64,000 bases of DNA, taken from positions 150,655 through 214,654 of the forward strand of contig JACQVQ010000005.1 in the NCBI GenBank assembly GCA_016209685.1, written 5' to 3'. Made by a program: the position numbers and the translations under genes. Every line of letters starts with the position of its first letter. Position 1 is the first letter of the stretch. Source of the stretch: Planctomycetota bacterium (GTDB taxonomy: Bacteria; Planctomycetota; Brocadiia; Brocadiales; Bathyanammoxibiaceae). This document shows positions 3,342 to 63,825 of the stretch, piece by piece. The notes beneath the pieces are model-generated. The model searched no databases. It was not told where the DNA came from and saw only the letters and a program-made list of their open reading frames with translations.

Positions 3342-4654
3342 TAAGGCGGGCCATTGTCCTGGTAACGGCCCTGAGGTGGGCACTGGAAGACTGTGCAGGA
3401 TTACCCCTCTTCAAGCGTGCACTGCTGGCGGCCCAGAAAGGGGGAATAGAGGAGTTTTATATCGTTGCCAGGGAGGCCGCACAACTCCAGCCTTTGTTAC
3501 AGGACACAAGACTCAAGGCTACCTTGCGGTGGATTGAAGGGGGTCTGCCTGAAGAATTTTTTAAACCTGATACCAAGGCCGGCCCTGCCACCTCAACGGG
3601 GGTGTTGGTTATCAAAGCAGAATCGGTCTTTGATGCAAAGGTAATAGAAGGGGTACAGAACTGGGGGCTAGGGGAGGAGTCAGCCAGCCTGGCCGTCAGG
3701 AAGGGCACGGCAGAGCGGGGCACCTCTGTAAGGCTTGAGGGAGAAAAGGTTGCTGGCCTTGGGGAGGAAGAGGCAGATGCCCTGACGGCAGGGATTCTAC
3801 TGGTAAAGCCAGAGACCCTGAGGGGGATAGACCTTGGCGACCACAGGAACCCCATAACCTTTACGGAAGTAATCCGCCATCTGGCCAATAAAGGTACTGT
3901 AAGGGCGGTTAACGTTACCAAAGAGTTCTGCCAGGAAGTTACCTCTCTAGAGACCCTCAAGGGTGTAAAGAAGGCGCTGTATAAACGGTTGGGCCTCCCC
4001 ACTGATGGCCTAATGGCCATATATGTCAACAGAAAACTCTCCAGGTTTCTCACAAGGGTGTTAATAAGACTGCCAATTACCCCCAACCAGATAACCATTT
4101 GCAGTCTCCTTATTGGATTGACTGCCTGCTGGTTCTTCTGGCAGGGGGGTTACTGGTACGGCGTCTTTGCCGCATTGATATATCAGGCCTCGGTCATTGT
4201 GGATTTGAGCGACGGGGAGGTGGCCAGGCTGAAGTTTATGCAGTCCCGGTTTGGTGCCTGGCTTGATTCTGTCTGCGACAGTATAGTTTACGCAGGTATA
4301 TTCCTCGCCACTGCCCTGGCCCTCTCCAGACAAGGACATGCCAACGTCCTCTGGGCAGGCATTGTCTCTGCCACTGCCGCCCTCGTATGCCTCAACCTGG
4401 ATTCCTACTTGCTCATGCAAAAGGATACGGCAGGGGCGTCCAACACGTCAGCCCCTGTGGGGAGTGGTACTGCCACCTTTCTAGGAATGCTGTCCAACGT
4501 GGATACCTTCCAGATAATCCTCTTCCTCTTTGTATTTTCCGGACAGATGCTGTGGTTCACCTGGGGCATGGCGGTGGGATGGGGAGGTTATCTAACGGTC
4601 TCTCTTTCTAGACTCTTTCTAGGATGGATATGGAGAAGTCGTGCAGCGGCCTAA
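3338..4654 (+). CDS. CDP-alcohol phosphotransferase with N-terminal nucleotidyltransferase-like domain
   Basis: Exact CDP-alcohol phosphatidyltransferase motif D-LS-DG-EV-AR-x8-G-AWL-D-SVC-D plus TM segments; N-terminal half NTase-like but lacks LAAGxGxR. Confidence 0.8.
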   Translation: MIRRAIVLVTALRWALEDCAGLPLFKRALLAAQKGGIEEFYIVAREAAQLQPLLQDTRLKATLRWIEGGLPEEFFKPDTKAGPATSTGVLVIKAESVFDAKVIEGVQNWGLGEESASLAVRKGTAERGTSVRLEGEKVAGLGEEEADALTAGILLVKPETLRGIDLGDHRNPITFTEVIRHLANKGTVRAVNVTKEFCQEVTSLETLKGVKKALYKRLGLPTDGLMAIYVNRKLSRFLTRVLIRLPITPNQITICSLLIGLTACWFFWQGGYWYGVFAALIYQASVIVDLSDGEVARLKFMQSRFGAWLDSVCDSIVYAGIFLATALALSRQGHANVLWAGIVSATAALVCLNLDSYLLMQKDTAGASNTSAPVGSGTATFLGMLSNVDTFQIILFLFVFSGQMLWFTWGMAVGWGGYLTVSLSRLFLGWIWRSRAAA

Positions 4655-4657
4655 ACC
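4622..4657 (+). repeat. Direct repeat copy 1 at gene junction
   Basis: ggatggatatggagaagtcgtgcagcggcctaaacc; copy 2 at 4695-4730, 34/36 identical. Confidence 0.95.
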
Positions 4658-4680
4658 ACAAGTAGGGAGACATAGTCCAG

Positions 4681-6831
4681 GTGTTCCGCCACCTGGATGG
4701 ATATGGAGAAGTCGTGCATCGGCCTGAACCGCCAGGGGACGGTATAGTCCTGAGTGTCTGCCCCCACGACTGCCCGGACACCTGCAGTATCCTATCCCAC
4801 GTGAAGGGGGGCAAGCTAGTAAAAGTGAAGGGAAACCCCCAACACCACGTGACCAGGGGTTTCCTCTGTCCAAAGGTGAGGCACTATCCAGAAAGGGTCT
4901 ATAGCCCGGAACGGGTGTTATATCCCATGAAGAGGGTAGGCCCGAGAGGCTCAGGCCGCTTCCAGAGGATTTCGTGGGAAGAGGCCGTGGAGACCATTGC
5001 CTCCCGCTGGAAGGCTATTATCGCCAGGGAGGGCCCAAGGGCCATACTCCCCTATTACGGTTCTGGAACCCTGGGGATGGTGCATGGAAAACTGGCGGGG
5101 AAACGGTTCTTTAACCGCCTGGGAACGCTACAGCTTGACCGTACCATATGCACCAAGGCGGGACGGATTGGCTACCTCTACACCATGGGTACCTCGGAAG
5201 GGGCGGACCCAAGGGGCATCCCCTATTCAAGACTTGTCATAGCCTGGGGGACTAACACCTTTTCCACCAACGTACACCAACTACCCTTCCTCAGAGAGGC
5301 CAGGAGAAAGGGCGCCCTCTATGCCGTGGTGAACCCGTTTAGGGTAAAAGGGGCAGAGGTGGCGGATTTGTTCCTCCAGCCAAGGCCCGGCAGTGATGCG
5401 GCCCTGGCCCTCGGCATGATGCACATAATAATCAAGGAAGGACTCTTTGACAGGGACTTCGTCTCCCACTCCACCTCTGGTTTTGAGGAACTGCAGAGAC
5501 GGGTAGAGGAATATCCCCTGGAGCGAGTAGAGAAACTCACGGACATAGAGGCCCAAAAGATACGGGAATTTGCCAGGCTCTACGCCAGTAGTAAGCCCTC
5601 TTTTATCTATGTGGGTTCAGGCTGTCAGCATCATACTAATGGTGGCATGACCCTGCGGACGCTATCCTGTCTACCTGCCCTAGTGGGGACGTGGGGGAGG
5701 CCAGGCGGTGGTATCTTCTTCCCTACCAGCACTATATTTCCGGTGGACTGGGACTACCTGGAGGGGGAGGACCTGAGGCCCAACCCTCCGGCCTCATTTA
5801 ATATGAACAGCCTGGGCGAAATCCTCACGAATGGTAACCCCAGGATTAGCAGTCTTTATGTGTTCAATGCCAATCCTATGGCCGTACTATTTAACCAGAA
5901 CAGGTTGTTGACCGGGATTCTCAGGGAAGACCTCTTTACCGTAGTACATGAATTGTTCTTTACCGATACTGCGCATTATGCCGACATGGTTCTGCCGGCC
6001 ACTACCCAATTTGAGCAGGTAGACCTCCATGCCTCCTACTACCACCTCAGCCTCCAGCTCAACCAGCGGGCCATAGAACCCCTTGGGGAATGCAAGTCAA
6101 ATCTGGAGACCTTTAACCTCCTGGCCAGGGCAATGGGCCTTGAAGACCCCTGTTTTAAGCAAGACAGTTGGGACGTAATTGAGGAGATGCTGTCTACCAG
6201 GCACCCCGCCCTGGAAGGCATAACTCTGGAAAGACTCATTAAAGAAGGTCACGCCCCACTTAACCTTGAGATACCTTACGTGCCTTTTAAGGCTTGTAGT
6301 GAACTAGACAAATCTGACGGGCGATTTCCCACCCCTTCAGGGAAGATAGAATTTTACTCCCAAAAGATGGAAGCCGAGGGCCTTGACCCATTACCCACCC
6401 ACATACCGTTAAAGGAGGGTAGGGAGACTACGCCCTGGCTCTACGAAAGGTATCCACTCTATCTCCTCACCCCGTCAGCCCACTCCCTCTTGAACTCCAA
6501 TTTCGCCAGCGACCCCTGGCTGCACGGTAGGGGCACGTTGCAACGTGCCCCTACTATAGTTATTAACCCTGAGGAGGCCGCCTCAAGGGGTATAAAGGAT
6601 GGGGACCTCGTAAGTGTCTTTAACGACAGGGGCAGTTGCCTCCTCTGGGCCTCTGTGGAGGATAGGGTAAGGCCAGGGGTGGTGGTGAGCCTGGGCCAGT
6701 GGTGGAGCCGCCACTGCCCAGGAGGTAAGAACGCAAACCATACCACCCCGGACTTCCTCGCAGACATGGGTGGAGGCTCGGCCTTCAACACCAATCTGGT
6801 GCAGGTAGAAAAAACCCTGTGGAACGCTTAG
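4681..6831 (+). CDS. Molybdopterin-dependent oxidoreductase (DMSO reductase/formate dehydrogenase family)
   Basis: CPHDCPDTCSI...GFLCPKV Fe-S motif and C-terminal molydopterin dinucleotide-binding domain; contains an in-frame 28-bp palindrome. Confidence 0.85.
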   Translation: MFRHLDGYGEVVHRPEPPGDGIVLSVCPHDCPDTCSILSHVKGGKLVKVKGNPQHHVTRGFLCPKVRHYPERVYSPERVLYPMKRVGPRGSGRFQRISWEEAVETIASRWKAIIAREGPRAILPYYGSGTLGMVHGKLAGKRFFNRLGTLQLDRTICTKAGRIGYLYTMGTSEGADPRGIPYSRLVIAWGTNTFSTNVHQLPFLREARRKGALYAVVNPFRVKGAEVADLFLQPRPGSDAALALGMMHIIIKEGLFDRDFVSHSTSGFEELQRRVEEYPLERVEKLTDIEAQKIREFARLYASSKPSFIYVGSGCQHHTNGGMTLRTLSCLPALVGTWGRPGGGIFFPTSTIFPVDWDYLEGEDLRPNPPASFNMNSLGEILTNGNPRISSLYVFNANPMAVLFNQNRLLTGILREDLFTVVHELFFTDTAHYADMVLPATTQFEQVDLHASYYHLSLQLNQRAIEPLGECKSNLETFNLLARAMGLEDPCFKQDSWDVIEEMLSTRHPALEGITLERLIKEGHAPLNLEIPYVPFKACSELDKSDGRFPTPSGKIEFYSQKMEAEGLDPLPTHIPLKEGRETTPWLYERYPLYLLTPSAHSLLNSNFASDPWLHGRGTLQRAPTIVINPEEAASRGIKDGDLVSVFNDRGSCLLWASVEDRVRPGVVVSLGQWWSRHCPGGKNANHTTPDFLADMGGGSAFNTNLVQVEKTLWNA
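4695..4730 (+). repeat. Direct repeat copy 2 at gene junction
   Basis: ggatggatatggagaagtcgtgcatcggcctgaacc. Confidence 0.95.
6527..6554. repeat. Family A palindrome, in-frame in Mo-oxidoreductase
   Basis: gtaggggcacgttgcaacgtgcccctac, perfect 28-bp palindrome; reads RGTLQRAPT. Confidence 0.95.
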
Positions 6832-29462: not shown

Positions 29463-31508
29463 ATGAAAGTAACGTATAACTGGTTAAAGGAATACTGTGA
29501 CTTCAAGCTCTCGCCAGAGGGGCTGGCAGAGGTACTGACCGGCGCCGGCTTCGTGGTGGCAGGTATGAGGGCAACCCCTGACGGGGACCACGTACTGGAG
29601 ATAGAGGTTACCTCCAACCGCCCTGACTGTCTGGGGGTAATCGGGATTGCCCGTGAGATGGCGGCCCTCACCAGGAACCCCCTGAAGCCCCCTCCCCTGA
29701 GGTACAATGCGGGGAAAAAGGCCGTAGAGGTAAAAGTAACGGTAGAGGAGCCGGAGCTCTGCCCCAGATATACGGCGAGGGTGCTTCGCGGGGTAAAGAT
29801 TGGACCCTCCCCCGCCTGGCTCCAGCAGAGGCTTGAGGCAGTCGGCCTGAGACCGATTAACAACGTAGTGGACGTTACCAACTACGTCCTTATGGAGTGG
29901 AGTCAACCCCTCCATGCCTTTGACCTGGACAGACTTGAGGGTAAAGAAATCATAGTAAGGCGGGCACTGTCGGGGGAGAGGCTGGTAACCATAGATGGTG
30001 CCAAACTAGACCTTAACCCTGAGGTACTCGTGATTGCCGACACCTCAAGGCCCGTAGCCCTGGCCGGGGTGATGGGAGGGAGGGATACGGAGGTACACGA
30101 GGGGACGTGCAACGTCCTCCTGGAGTCGGCCAGGTTCGGGCCTGCTACTGTAAGGAGGATGGCGAGGAGGTTCGGCCTGAAGACAGAGTCCAGTTACCGC
30201 TTTGAGCGGGGGGTGGACATAGAGGGGGTGGACCTTGCCTCCCGGCGGGCAACGGCCCTTATCCTTGAGCTGGCCGGTGGAGAGGCGGCTAAGGATTCCG
30301 TAGACGTAAGGACAGTTGTAGGGGCACGGCATGCCGTGCCCCTACGATTATCCCGCCTGAACGCCGTCCTCGGCACCAACCTGGAGGAGGAGGCGGTCAG
30401 GGATACCCTCTGCCGTCTGGGTTTTGAGATAAAGGGCGGGAAACGGGGTGTCTTAGAGGTCGCCGTGCCTAGCTTCCGTGGGGACGTTGCACAGGAGATA
30501 GACCTCATTGAGGAGACTGCCAGGGTTCACGGCTATAACAATATCCCCACCAATACAGGTCTCCCCATACACGTCAGCCCCATAGGGAGACAGGAGCGGG
30601 TGGAGGAACGGGTCAGGGGGCTACTGGCCGGGTGTGGGTTCTTTGAGGCAGTTACTTATAGTATCGTAGAGGGTAATGAGACTGGGAGGGCAGGGTTGTT
30701 TCCCGGGGGGAGTCCCCTCCGTATAAGGAACCCGATACGAGCAGGAGAGGATTGTCTGAGACAGACCCTCCTGGGTAACCTGCTTCAGGCCAAGAGACAC
30801 AATCAAGACTACGGCACACCCAGGGTGAGACTCTATGAACTCTCAAAGGTCTATCTCCCCGAAGAGGGACAGAAACTCCCTATGGAAAAGACGTGTCTTG
30901 GGATTCTTTATGAGGAAGACTTGACTGTAATCAAGGGACAGGCTGGTAAAGACCCATTTTACGCCTTGAAGGGCCTTATGGAGGGCCTGCTGTCGGCCCT
31001 GGGTGCAAAGGGGGACATTCGTTGGGAGGGCCTGGCCAATCCATTCTTTACCAGAGAGAGGTCTTGTAAGGTAAACTTAGGGGGGGAACCCCTGGCTATC
31101 CTGGGGGAAGTGAGCGAGGAGATAGTGAAGGCTTACGACCTGCGGGACACGCCCTGCCTTGCGGAGATAAATTTTGACCTATTGGTTGAGAAGGCAGACA
31201 TGACCAGCACCTTTCAGAGACTCCCCCTCTACCCCCCGATTGACAGGGACGTTGCCATCGTAGTGGACGAGGGCGTAACCTGGGCAGAGGTAGAGTCCTG
31301 TGTAAGGGAGGCAGGGGCAAAATTTCTGGAGAAGGTGGAATTCTTTGACCTCTATCGTGGCAAGCAGGTTCCTCCAGGTAAAAAGAGCGTTGCCTTCAGA
31401 ATCCACTTTCGCACCCCTGACCGCACACTGACGGGAGAGGAGGCCGATAGGGCACAGGGCCTAATAATAGAAAGTCTGAGCAAGGCCCTGGGGGCCGTAT
31501 TAAGGTAA
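29463..31508 (+). CDS. pheT: Phenylalanyl-tRNA synthetase beta subunit, with an in-frame palindrome insertion
   Basis: Adjacent to pheS; LEIEVTSNRPDCLGVIGIARE, NNVVDVTNYVLMEWSQPLHAFD, C-terminal anticodon-binding domain. Confidence 0.95.
   Translation: MKVTYNWLKEYCDFKLSPEGLAEVLTGAGFVVAGMRATPDGDHVLEIEVTSNRPDCLGVIGIAREMAALTRNPLKPPPLRYNAGKKAVEVKVTVEEPELCPRYTARVLRGVKIGPSPAWLQQRLEAVGLRPINNVVDVTNYVLMEWSQPLHAFDLDRLEGKEIIVRRALSGERLVTIDGAKLDLNPEVLVIADTSRPVALAGVMGGRDTEVHEGTCNVLLESARFGPATVRRMARRFGLKTESSYRFERGVDIEGVDLASRRATALILELAGGEAAKDSVDVRTVVGARHAVPLRLSRLNAVLGTNLEEEAVRDTLCRLGFEIKGGKRGVLEVAVPSFRGDVAQEIDLIEETARVHGYNNIPTNTGLPIHVSPIGRQERVEERVRGLLAGCGFFEAVTYSIVEGNETGRAGLFPGGSPLRIRNPIRAGEDCLRQTLLGNLLQAKRHNQDYGTPRVRLYELSKVYLPEEGQKLPMEKTCLGILYEEDLTVIKGQAGKDPFYALKGLMEGLLSALGAKGDIRWEGLANPFFTRERSCKVNLGGEPLAILGEVSEEIVKAYDLRDTPCLAEINFDLLVEKADMTSTFQRLPLYPPIDRDVAIVVDEGVTWAEVESCVREAGAKFLEKVEFFDLYRGKQVPPGKKSVAFRIHFRTPDRTLTGEEADRAQGLIIESLSKALGAVLR
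30318..30345. repeat. Family A palindrome, in-frame in pheT
   Basis: gtaggggcacggcatgccgtgcccctac; reads VGARHAVPL. Confidence 0.95.
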
Positions 31509-31519
31509 TAATATAATGC

Positions 31520-31834
31520 ATGATAAGCATTGATGACATTAGAAAGAGGGTGGGAAAGAAGGAGTATGAAATTAGCCTCCACGCTGAAAAGGAGAGATAT
31601 GTAGAGGATATAACTATCTCTGATATAGAGTCCGTCATTGACACGGGTGAGGTATTAGAATATTATCCAGGTGACCCAAGAGGAAAAAGTTGCTTAGTCC
31701 TGGGTTATTCCAGGAATCGGCCCATTCATATAGTTTGTGGCTATACTCGGCTGGGATGGGTCAGGATAATAACCGTTTACATACCAAAGGCCCCCAAATG
31801 GTTGGACGAAAGAACCAGGAGGAAAGGGAAGTAA
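31520..31834 (+). CDS. DUF4258-type putative toxin
   Basis: ISLHAEKERYVEDITISDIESVIDTGEVLEYYPGDPRGKSCLVLGYSRNRPIHIVCGY. Confidence 0.72.
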   Translation: MISIDDIRKRVGKKEYEISLHAEKERYVEDITISDIESVIDTGEVLEYYPGDPRGKSCLVLGYSRNRPIHIVCGYTRLGWVRIITVYIPKAPKWLDERTRRKGK

Positions 31835-32088
31835 TGAAGGTACACGAATATGGAGATTGCTCCTTCTGTCAAGGAGAGGTAAAGGAAGCAAGGGTGGAGC
31901 TGGATTATCGCTATAAAGGAAGACTGTACGTATTCCAGAATGTGCCCACCGGTGTGTGTCAGCAATGTGGGGAGAAATATCTTACTGCCAGAATTGCAAA
32001 AGAAATAGAAAAGAAGATTCAAAAGAAGAAATGGGCTAAGACCATTGCTGTCCCTGTGGAAGTCTTCACAGAAGAGGCTTCTGTTTAG
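31834..32088 (+). CDS. YgiT-type (MqsA-like) zinc-finger antitoxin
   Basis: CSFCQGEVKEARVELDYRYKGRLYVFQNVPTGVCQQCGEKYLTARIAKEIE; ATG overlaps upstream TAA. Confidence 0.75.
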   Translation: MKVHEYGDCSFCQGEVKEARVELDYRYKGRLYVFQNVPTGVCQQCGEKYLTARIAKEIEKKIQKKKWAKTIAVPVEVFTEEASV

Positions 32089-32090
32089 GA

Positions 32091-32214
32091 GTGCCCATTT
32101 CCCTTCCACTTTCGCTCCCTTGACCGCACACTGACGGGGGAGGAGGCAGATAGGGCACGGGGGGTAATAATTGATGGGCTGGCTAAGAGACTGGGGGCTA
32201 TCGTAAGACAGTAG
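32091..32214 (+). pseudogene. Displaced second copy of the pheT 3' end
   Basis: Translates as FHFRSLDRTLTGEEADRARGVIIDGLAKRLGAIVRQ*, homologous to the pheT C-terminus IHFRTPDRTLTGEEADRAQGLIIESLSKALGAVLR*. Confidence 0.85.
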
Positions 32215-56500: not shown

Positions 56501-57613
56501 TCAATCAAAAAATCCCTGGTCTATATCAGCAATCAGGGTCTTTTTCATCTGTCCGTTGCCTAGCCTTTTTATCAGATAATTCTTGAGGGTGGGCTCCCAT
56601 ATACTTACTATCTCCCCCTCATTGCCCCTACTCCGTACCCATGCACCACCACCGCCAGCATAATAAGGTGGGTTGTATGCCTCGGAGATAATATCATCTG
56701 TAGCATCGTCATAATGGGCATTGCTCACGGCGACAGAAAGATTCTTATGCGTCTTGGAGAGTATCAGGGAGGCCAACTCTTGGATGATGGCCGTATAGGC
56801 TGGCGAAAGCCGGTTAAGGCTATAGGTATCCCAGGTCTTATCATAGACCCAGGGGCCTTCAAGGCTATTGGCTTTGTACTGGACAAGGTTCTCAGAATAA
56901 GGATTCCAGGGAATACCGTAGATACCACTGTCTTGCTTATAAATTACTATCTTGTAGCCATAATTAGGGTCAGAGTTATCTACATAGAGCCAACCCAGAG
57001 AATAGAAAGCCTTTTGACTATCCTGTATTGCAACCTTGACTTCCTTTGTCTCTGTCTTTTTTGTATTTAACTTTGCGTAGTAGATAGCATCGGTGAAATT
57101 ATAAGGGGCCCAGAAGAAGACATAGTCTTTAAAGAAAATAGGGTAATTGTTGGTTGTGAGAGTAATCCCCTCAAACATGTTCCCGATTGGAATCCACCCC
57201 CACCCACCACCTTCAAGGGGAACTAACCGCTTTGTGGCCTGTGCCTCCGCACTCCAGTTTTTAAGTTGAATGCTTTGTAAATAAGGGGCGTCCACCCACC
57301 CAGTATATTTATACAAAAGGTGTACCCCATCGGGGTTTGTGGTGCTGGATTTCTTAAACAGGTTGGCTACCTGGATGTTATGCTCTGTAGGGCTAAAGAC
57401 TCCCTGGTTGAACTTGTGGATATAGCTGAAGACCGTTACCAGTTCCTCCGGTGGCCTCCTGAAAATGGGCTGGTGGGCGAACCTCTGCTCGGGGAGGACC
57501 TGCTCAATGGGAACAAAGCCCTTGTCTGCCATCATGAAGTTGCCCATCCTGGTGGCATTCGGGAGGAGCCTGTATTGACCCTTATTATCTTGGTAGACGT
57601 AATCTTTTCTCAT
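56501..57613 (-). CDS. Phage-module structural protein, unknown
   Basis: Long ORF; 5' end present in two further truncated copies upstream. Confidence 0.55.
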   Translation of the reverse strand: MRKDYVYQDNKGQYRLLPNATRMGNFMMADKGFVPIEQVLPEQRFAHQPIFRRPPEELVTVFSYIHKFNQGVFSPTEHNIQVANLFKKSSTTNPDGVHLLYKYTGWVDAPYLQSIQLKNWSAEAQATKRLVPLEGGGWGWIPIGNMFEGITLTTNNYPIFFKDYVFFWAPYNFTDAIYYAKLNTKKTETKEVKVAIQDSQKAFYSLGWLYVDNSDPNYGYKIVIYKQDSGIYGIPWNPYSENLVQYKANSLEGPWVYDKTWDTYSLNRLSPAYTAIIQELASLILSKTHKNLSVAVSNAHYDDATDDIISEAYNPPYYAGGGGAWVRSRGNEGEIVSIWEPTLKNYLIKRLGNGQMKKTLIADIDQGFFD

Positions 57614-57626
57614 AGCCTAAAAACAT

Positions 57627-57666
57627 TGTAAATTGGAAATTGGAAATTTAAAATTTGAAATTTACA
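57627..57666. repeat. Family E AT-rich repeat
   Basis: tgtaaattggaaattggaaatttaaaatttgaaatttac. Confidence 0.85.
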
Positions 57667-57741
57667 GAAGCCCCCTATCCTCTCGGCGTTCTGGAGGAGC
57701 TTGTACTGGCCTTTATCTTGATAAACGTAATCTTTTTTCAT
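57667..57741 (-). pseudogene. Truncated extra copy of the 5' end of ORF 56501..57613
   Basis: MKKDYVYQDKGQYKLLQNAERIGG vs MRKDYVYQDNKGQYRLLPNATRMGN. Confidence 0.85.
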
Positions 57742-57751
57742 AAAACTCTAG

Positions 57752-57838
57752 ACCCTTCGCTACGCTCAGGGTGACACTTCGTGTCAGATTCTTCGCTCCC
57801 CCTTCGCTACGCTCAGGGCTTCGGCTCACTCAGAATGA
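57752..57838. repeat. SERSEES-type repeat
   Basis: cccttcgctacgctcagggtgac...cagattcttcgct...cactcagaatgaca. Confidence 0.85.
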
Positions 57839-57841
57839 CAA

Positions 57842-57918
57842 GGAGGGGTGGCGTTCTGGTAGGGGCGGGGTTACCCCGCCCCTACGTCTTTATCTTGATA
57901 GACGTAATCTTTTTTCAT
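57842..57918 (-). pseudogene. Second truncated extra copy of the same 5' end, interrupted by a palindrome
   Basis: MKKDYVYQDKD then GTAGGGGCGGGGTAACCCCGCCCCTAC then QNATPP. Confidence 0.8.
57859..57885. repeat. Family A palindrome
   Basis: gtaggggcggggttaccccgcccctac. Confidence 0.9.
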
Positions 57919-57930
57919 AGCCTAAAAACA

Positions 57931-57966
57931 TTGGAAATTGGAAATTTAAAATTTGAAATTTACAAT
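57931..57966. repeat. Family E AT-rich repeat
   Basis: ttggaaattggaaatttaaaatttgaaatttacaat. Confidence 0.85.
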
Positions 57967-58236
57967 TCATTCCCCTGTCTGCTGACCCCTGACTGCTGAC
58001 TGCTGATTCCTGTCTTTCTTCAACTTATCCAGCTTCTTTGCAATCTCAAACTGCTGGTGGAAGCCCAGGCGACAGAGCGCCTGGGCTATAGGGTTGGGGC
58101 TCTGCCCCCAACCCTGGGCCAGGACAAAGAAGCCCAGTATCCAGCACAGGGTCAGGGCTATAGTAACCAGGGTATCTAGCATTTTAATTCCGAATTCCGA
58201 AGTCCGAATTCCGAATTCGGGCTTCTGTCCGTACAC
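57967..58236 (-). CDS. Small TM protein largely assembled from dispersed repeats
   Basis: FGIRTSEFGIK + MLDTLVTIALTLCWILGFFVLAQ + GWGQSPNPIAQAL + NQQSAVRGQQ. Confidence 0.4.
   Translation of the reverse strand: MYGQKPEFGIRTSEFGIKMLDTLVTIALTLCWILGFFVLAQGWGQSPNPIAQALCRLGFHQQFEIAKKLDKLKKDRNQQSAVRGQQTGE
58063..58114. repeat. Family B palindrome in ORF 57967
   Basis: gcccaggcgacagagcgcctgggctatagggttggggctctgcccccaacc. Confidence 0.92.
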
Positions 58237-63139: not shown

Positions 63140-63167
63140 GTAGGGGCGGTTCGCGAACCGCCCCTAC
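63140..63167. repeat. Family A palindrome
   Basis: gtaggggcggttcgcgaaccgcccctac. Confidence 0.9.
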
Positions 63168-63348: not shown

Positions 63349-63825
63349 CTAATAGGCAAACGTAAAGAACCCACCGAAACCGTTATAGATAAAGACAGTT
63401 TTAGCCAGTATATCTCTGCCAATTAGTGCAATGAGGGGTTTATCGCCTACGCCTTGTCCCTTGAGGTTTACTCCGATTGCTGAATTAAACTCAACCTCAA
63501 ACCCATGTACGGGAAATCGTAGCCTAGCAGGATAAAGACTCTGCTGAACTGGACCAGCAGCAGTCATGGTAGTGGTAGTGCCTATTGGATTAACCCCTAA
63601 TGTGGAGACGGCTTGTTCGTCTATGCAACTTCGTGTAGCACCAGTATCTATAAGCGCAAAACCAGACACTGACGGTGGGATAGAGAGATTTTGTGTTGTT
63701 AAATACTGGACAAGTGCAGAAGGAACAGCAATTTCAACTTCTAGCACAGGGCCTACGTGAGCCAACAAATTTGGATTGGGTCGGTTACTCCTTGTATCAA
63801 TATAATGACGATTATAAACGGGCAC
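63349..63825 (-). CDS. Retropepsin-like aspartic protease-domain protein
   Basis: GFALIDTGATRSCIDEQAVSTLGV (D-T-G-A), ALIGRDIL; GTG start. Confidence 0.7.
   Translation of the reverse strand: MPVYNRHYIDTRSNRPNPNLLAHVGPVLEVEIAVPSALVQYLTTQNLSIPPSVSGFALIDTGATRSCIDEQAVSTLGVNPIGTTTTMTAAGPVQQSLYPARLRFPVHGFEVEFNSAIGVNLKGQGVGDKPLIALIGRDILAKTVFIYNGFGGFFTFAY

Follow-up and report, generated by a model that had tools for sequence, protein, structure and literature searches.

The start of a gene for a 370-aa protein is present three times in succession at 56501-57918 of the window (the whole stretch of 64,000 nucleotides that was analysed), once at the head of the intact gene and twice as truncated stumps upstream of it. 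On the minus strand the order is a small gene, dispersed repeat E, copy 3, a SERSEES-type repeat, copy 2, repeat E and copy 1, which is the real gene (Table 1). We give about an even chance to the reading that the stumps are other alleles of this phage gene, which were displaced one after the other by recombination. The mechanism of recombination, the order of the events and a process shared with toxin-antitoxin loci elsewhere in the genome are what we infer from these arrangements.

Table 1. Features of the locus, of a comparison gene in the window, and of gene-end stumps elsewhere in the genome. Positions without a contig name are those of the window.
Feature	Position	Strand	Basis, or content between gene and stump
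Copy 1, intact 370-aa gene, first ~68 residues conserved	56501..57613	-	ORF; relatives G001, G002, G005, G006
Dispersed repeat E, most of copy 1 leader	57616..57666	-	family E matches; alignment of copies
Copy 2, 25-codon stump, different allele of gene start (apparent)	57667..57741	-	
SERSEES-type dispersed repeat, copy 2 leader	57747..57838	-	family at >30 genome loci
Copy 3, gene-start stump: ~10 codons, palindrome, then QNAT	57847..57918	-	
Family A palindrome, GTAG-headed, 27 bp, inside copy 3	57859..57885	.	
Dispersed repeat E, copy 3 leader, 7-nt indel relative to E of copy 1	57921..57964	-	
Small upstream gene MLDTLVTIALTLCWILGFF..., 3' end here repeat-built	57967..58182	-	
Comparison gene, 3' end duplicated downstream	29463..31508	+	
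Toxin-antitoxin-like pair: DUF4258, then MqsA-like zinc-finger below Pfam cut-off	31520..32088	+	
3' end stump of gene 29463-31508, 77/94 identical (whole arrangement: window 31402-32198)	32105..32198	+	
3' stump	C8:307115		between: MNT and HepT-like
3' stump	C8:243938		between: repeats only
3' stump	C8:304351		between: HicB, HicA
3' stump	C9:129579		between: HicB-like, HicA, SERSEES
3' stump	C9:104848		between: MNT
3' stump	C3:182162 (= window 31508)		between: DUF4258 + sub-threshold MqsA-like protein
3' stump	C11:351369		between: MNT and HepT
5' stump	C11:352643		between: UPF0150/HicB-like
5' stump, carB-like gene (by eye)	C11:119775		between: small gene + weakly aspartyl-protease-like gene
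5' stump, MiaB-like gene (by eye)	C11:161876		between: DUF4258 and DUF2283

A preliminary description of this DNA had reported that the gene start recurs at 57741 and 57918. This was borne out by local alignment to the gene start, in which copy 2 scored 60 and copy 3 scored 48, compared with a random maximum of 24 (about 3000 windows, 400 nt). From its start at 57741, copy 2 reads MKKDYVYQDKGQYKLLQNAERIGGF. Copy 3, with its start at 57918, has the sequence MKKDYVYQDKD that had been described, followed by a family A palindrome and QNAT; the palindrome is not a mere interruption and stands in place of about 17 nt of the copy. The SERSEES-type repeat that was said to separate copies 2 and 3 is also present, at about 57747-57838. 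A 78-nt direct repeat shared by copies 1 and 3 was detected independently. The segment that these two copies were said to share is real, but the common leader ('catagcctaaaaacattg'), listed there beside repeat E, is mostly E itself, and hence what is private to copies 1 and 3 is limited to a few bases just ahead of the ATG. The leader was therefore rejected as proof that a private leader had been duplicated. The locus consists of two stumps and one intact gene, so that a repeat terminates copies 2 and 3 but not, as had been proposed, all three copies.

The window comes from contig C3 of a metagenome-type draft genome (G000; 2.02 Mb in 14 contigs). The nearest named relative found was Planctomycetes bacterium RIFCSPHIGHO2_12_FULL_52_36 (G001), whose matching contig, MHYW01000117, is also listed among viral contigs. 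Scans of genome contigs and viral contigs for the locus returned this sister contig as the sole hit and no second assembly. The 370-aa gene adjoins a minor-tail-like protein in a phage tail neighbourhood. The protein had matches in 8 of the 59 relative genomes searched (G001, G002, G005 and G006 among them), and in distant relatives the match was confined to the first 55-75 residues or so. Searches with the protein against Pfam, PHROGs and PDB sequences gave no match, nor did the gene in phage records or the gene-start pattern in viral contigs. The small gene upstream is kept at the same position in G001, G002 and G005.

Sequence relations and possible origin of the three starts

Allele comparisons here rest on 43-75 nt and their distances have wide errors; within these limits, copies 1 and 2 are identical at 59 of 75 positions (79%), copy 2 and the G001 gene at 61 of 75, and copy 1 and the G001 or G002 gene at 60 of 75 (80-81% for alleles of these species). 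Half of the differences between copies 1 and 2 (8/16) are synonymous. Copy 1 has an extra codon after codon 9 that is absent from copy 2, as it is from the relatives, and where copy 1 has Pro, copy 2 has Gln, as do G001 and G002. Copy 2 thus looks like a remnant of another allele rather than a decayed copy of the resident start, and this allelic character of the remnant is as in sequential displacement. Because of the distance of copy 2, its synonymous share and the states that it has in common with relatives, displaced alleles appear to be the source of the stumps. No intact donor allele with the copy 2 sequence was found in the genome contigs or viral contigs; relatives carry other alleles.

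Copy 3, of which 43 nt could be compared, has a much closer segment in common with copy 1. This segment consists of E, the leader and the first ten codons; within it, E differs by a single 7-nt indel and the coding part by two mismatches in 29 bases. This closeness suggests that a more recent duplication, gene conversion or a common donor was also involved.

The displacement that we favour would begin with incoming related DNA, which was probably a version of the gene from another phage, headed by a leader of its own made of repeats. Homologous recombination inside the gene would be combined with an illegitimate join to the old sequence upstream; alternatively, a small circle bearing the 5' part of the gene would be integrated by a single crossover. 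By either route, the gene would receive a complete new leader and start, and the old leader with the first 20-25 codons would be stranded upstream. The locus would represent two rounds, with copy 3 (E leader) as the oldest, copy 2 (SERSEES leader) as the next and copy 1 (E leader) as the present one. In the main, the junction repeats would be the leaders of the individual alleles, the palindrome would have entered copy 3 separately, and the stumps would need no function.

This proposal is weakened by how nearly copies 1 and 3 agree in E, leader and ten codons, since such agreement is more easily obtained by recent local duplication or gene conversion. A local tandem duplication of the leader and start, with neutral decay and insertion of the mobile repeats SERSEES and A into the spare copies, is accordingly possible, though we think it rather unlikely. 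It would be in keeping with the palindrome, which lies clearly inside copy 3, and with the Val (GTC/GTT) that all three copies have where the relatives and a fourth start on contig C9 have Ile. However, copy 2 is too divergent for it, with too many synonymous differences, a 25-codon frame that has been kept and states absent from copy 1, and the start on C9 is left unexplained. Serial displacement fits the locus better than serial duplication. The preliminary description had favoured serial duplication; truncated starts do stand in series with a dispersed repeat at each junction, but the simple duplication of the resident start is disfavoured by the allele-like copy 2.

The frame of copy 2 (57610-57741) is open across the E repeat, and its TGA stop overlaps the ATG of copy 1, a geometry permitting translational coupling. 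The upstream starts could on this ground be putatively functional, as leader peptides or through leader-switching recombination that regulates the gene, and the direct repeats, spaced by 305 bp, could bring about loss of the intervening segment. We consider such a function very improbable, since the upstream starts are absent from all relatives and the frame of copy 3 is stopped by the palindrome.

Dispersed repeats and a fourth start on contig C9

The gene-start pattern occurs four times in the genome, three times at the locus and once on C9, and, as an exact match, once in each of G001, G002 and G005. At these counts, the gene-start sequence was ruled out as a high-copy dispersed repeat. In each of the three relatives, the single start follows the same small gene and stands behind differing repeats; in G002, a SERSEES repeat is directly upstream of the gene. 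On C9, between RtcB-like and M28-peptidase-like genes (named by eye), an E repeat precedes ATGAAAAAAGACTACATCTATCAAGATAAAGGCCAG, after which comes GCCAGG. G001 has neither E nor the start at this site, which shows that E together with the gene start arrived elsewhere too. The C9 stump can result from recombination with its anchor in E or from E-borne transport, whereas local tandem duplication cannot give rise to it.

Transport of this kind would mean that dispersed repeats move and carry the adjoining gene start with them (transduction of about 36-75 nt), some of them landing beside the parent gene. The C9 site would be readily accounted for, and E does precede copies 1 and 3, as SERSEES precedes copy 2. 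The genome also has three Y1-transposase genes, one of them with SERSEES and GTAGGG-type palindromes on either side. We nevertheless regard the transduction as unlikely. Family E has matches at >40 genome loci (other copies include ACAATGTTTTCAGG), but among the best 30 E copies an adjoining gene start was seen only at the locus and on C9. No link between E and a transposase was seen, three insertions at one target would be needed, and the toxin-antitoxin cases described below would be left unexplained. The ACC at the junction of copy 3 and SERSEES and the GCCAG at the C9 junction are candidate microhomologies, which may be due to chance.

Gene-end stumps beside toxin-antitoxin pairs

Copies of gene ends within 2.5 kb were scanned for in 1.24 Mb of this genome (1063 genes), which together with samples of G017 and G003 is the base for any generality. 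Same-orientation, terminal-anchored copies were found 11 times downstream and five times upstream, compared with none inverted and one and two for gene interiors. C3:68647, C3:99649, C11:67947 and C11:173371 were set aside as tandem paralogues or domain repeats. The stumps and what lies between them and their genes are listed in Table 1; the 5' stumps also include the 56501-57918 locus. Gene-end stumps are thus in excess in this genome, and most of them are next to toxin-antitoxin pairs. Some 40 nt from the start of ORF 4681-6831 (oxidoreductase-like) recur 76 nt farther upstream, where they overlap the 3' end of the ORF before it (window 4624-4733). This is possibly another start stump, but the pair is doubtful and was kept out of the tally.

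In the whole genome, 10 of the 34 HicA/MNT loci (L262-L295) have low-copy direct repeats of 34-107 nt on both sides, compared with 1 of 400 random windows (Fisher P = 2e-11), which is to be read as an association and not as an unbiased rate, because the families were picked from the first scan and the random windows are mostly coding. None of the repeats is inverted. Those examined are copies of the end of the neighbouring gene or tRNA, including an aspS-like gene start and a tRNA-Pro 3' end.

Several of these arrangements are shared with relatives. The insert and stump at C9:104848 are also found in G001 and G002, and the MiaB-like stump is common to G006. In G001, the stump of the carB-like gene is kept with a HicB-HicA-like pair (by eye) instead of the protease pair, and a short TVELITK tail after the pair resembles the end of the G000 protease gene. 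G002 has a related damaged pair there, and its contig ends before the stump position. At the carB-like sites of both relatives (L251, L249), a protease-like tail comes after the pair, which gives the impression that one pair took the place of another. Where G000 has MNT and HepT at C11:351369, a DUF2283-like frame (by eye, partly masked) is found in G001. A sister species thus has a different pair between gene and stump at two gene ends. The freshest example is in G017, a single contig, where a 238-nt repeat with one mismatch surrounds a DUF6883/DUF4926 insert. At the end of the gene 29463-31508, G002 has other small frames, DUF4258- and DUF2283-like by eye. The insert upstream of the carB-like gene in G000 holds a gene similar to an aspartyl-protease-like gene (Pfam Asp_protease_2) at window 63349-63825, on the edge of the phage region.

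The recurrence in relatives bears on a possible artefact of assembly, in which strain variants with different leaders would have been joined in series. The locus rests on one assembly, a metagenome-type draft, and related species do have different leaders. However, the stumps are not identical to the gene and so are not simple k-mer repeats, and stumps are also present in the independently assembled G001, G002 and G006 and in the single-contig G017. An artefact is improbable for the locus, and it is unlikely as the cause of the general signature because the signature recurs in independently assembled relatives.

When six 3' stumps were compared with the resident gene ends, 34 differences were synonymous and 20 nonsynonymous, where 22% synonymous is expected at random (P = 1e-10). 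With three further cases and the locus pooled, the counts were 48 and 37 (P = 6e-12 against 22%; P = 4e-5 against 35%, which is roughly what we would assume for a neutral stump next to a gene under constraint). The cases vary, with 9:0 at C8:243938, 6:11 at C3:182162 and frameshifts in the carB stump of G000. At C8:307115, the resident end matches those of the sister species at 96 and 94 of 98 positions and the stump at 90 and 88, and thus the stump looks like the foreign part. This would fit the single-crossover integration of a small gene-end circle from another strain better than a target-site duplication. Identity profiles were flat in the two toxin-antitoxin-associated genes that were profiled for a donor tract, and showed none with distinct borders, and at the 370-aa gene the relatives are too divergent.

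The toxin-antitoxin cases may be explained if short pieces of foreign DNA were integrated at gene ends, either one-sidedly or by a single crossover, and the locus would be a 5' case of this, repeated twice. We put forward a broader proposal only tentatively, with more doubt than the displacement at the locus itself. In this lineage of Planctomycetes, small cargo, mainly toxin-antitoxin pairs and sometimes only repeats, would travel with a copy of the neighbouring gene end (a 5' or 3' end of 34-107 nt from a protein or tRNA gene) and settle at that end in other genomes without a recombinase of its own, the gene remaining intact and a stump being left. Pairs could then be exchanged or stacked at gene ends, which would act as docking sites in general, and at the phage locus the start would have been replaced twice. 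At the locus, only E and SERSEES lie between the copies, and C8:243938 is the one other stump case with nothing but repeats; since the locus has no toxin-antitoxin pair, its link with the toxin-antitoxin loci is only one that we infer.

Taken by itself, the locus is of moderate interest; what deserves to be followed is the signature of stumps next to toxin-antitoxin pairs. This signature bears on how such pairs and other small cargo without their own recombinase spread between chromosomes. If the proposal is true, the stump on the far side of an insert is a readable scar, by which events could be counted in any genome, and which gives orientation and relative age and helps to separate import from vertical inheritance. 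The layered stumps at the locus would be a small record of the past leaders and alleles of one phage gene. No published account of gene-end stumps that surround toxin-antitoxin pairs came up in a crude word search of the literature; as an argument for novelty, this is weak.

Relation to known systems

Stepwise displacement has been proposed for the T6SS effector loci of Vibrio cholerae, with Rhs C-terminal displacement cited in the same study (PMC5361080). As proposed here, a conserved part of the gene anchors the incoming DNA, the new module takes over, the old remnant stays beside it, and layers build up. In the T6SS loci, the conserved part is 5' and the remnants (3' ends and immunity genes) are downstream, whereas here 5' starts are left upstream, with dispersed repeats between them and no effector or immunity gene.

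In E. coli, single crossovers of recircularised fragments gave gene-end duplications of 109-950 bp around inserts; homology-facilitated illegitimate recombination is marked by 3-10 bp of microhomology at the illegitimate junction (PMC3240628). The likeness is that one-sided homology or a single crossover leaves an insert beside a partial duplication of the target gene. Those were laboratory products with identical copies and large plasmid inserts, whereas the stumps here are of 34-107 nt (238 nt in G017) and often divergent, and the event would be a past one. Classical products of homology-facilitated illegitimate recombination usually have deletions, unlike the stump cases. Integrative elements at tRNA or gene 3' ends also duplicate gene ends around inserts and leave the gene whole, as in the cases here, which include one tRNA-Pro 3' end. 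Unlike these elements, the inserts are of 0.1-1.2 kb and 5' ends of genes are used too. No recombinase was visible among the listed frames of the inserts that were read.

REP palindromes tagged by GTAG, with Y1 (RAYT) transposases, are a known system (PMC3733652, PMC2817692). Family A resembles it in being GTAG-headed, palindromic and of high copy number, with 200 copies in the genome compared with none for the reversed control pattern, and this would place it with the REPs of the GTAG class; Y1 genes are present as well. The difference is that, of the three Y1 genes, a single one has related repeats on both sides, among them palindromes (GTAGGGTGCG-type) that are related but not identical to family A, and mobilisation of family A, SERSEES and E by Y1 is a candidate only. 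The flanked Y1 (RAYT-like) gene, L024 at 1387-2145, has SERSEES repeats in the same orientation on both sides. The 200 GTAGGGGC...GCCCCTAC palindromes have many different cores, many of them perfectly palindromic (e.g., window 6527-6554, 30318-30345 and 63140-63167), which looks like selection on a hairpin or one arm having been copied from the other.
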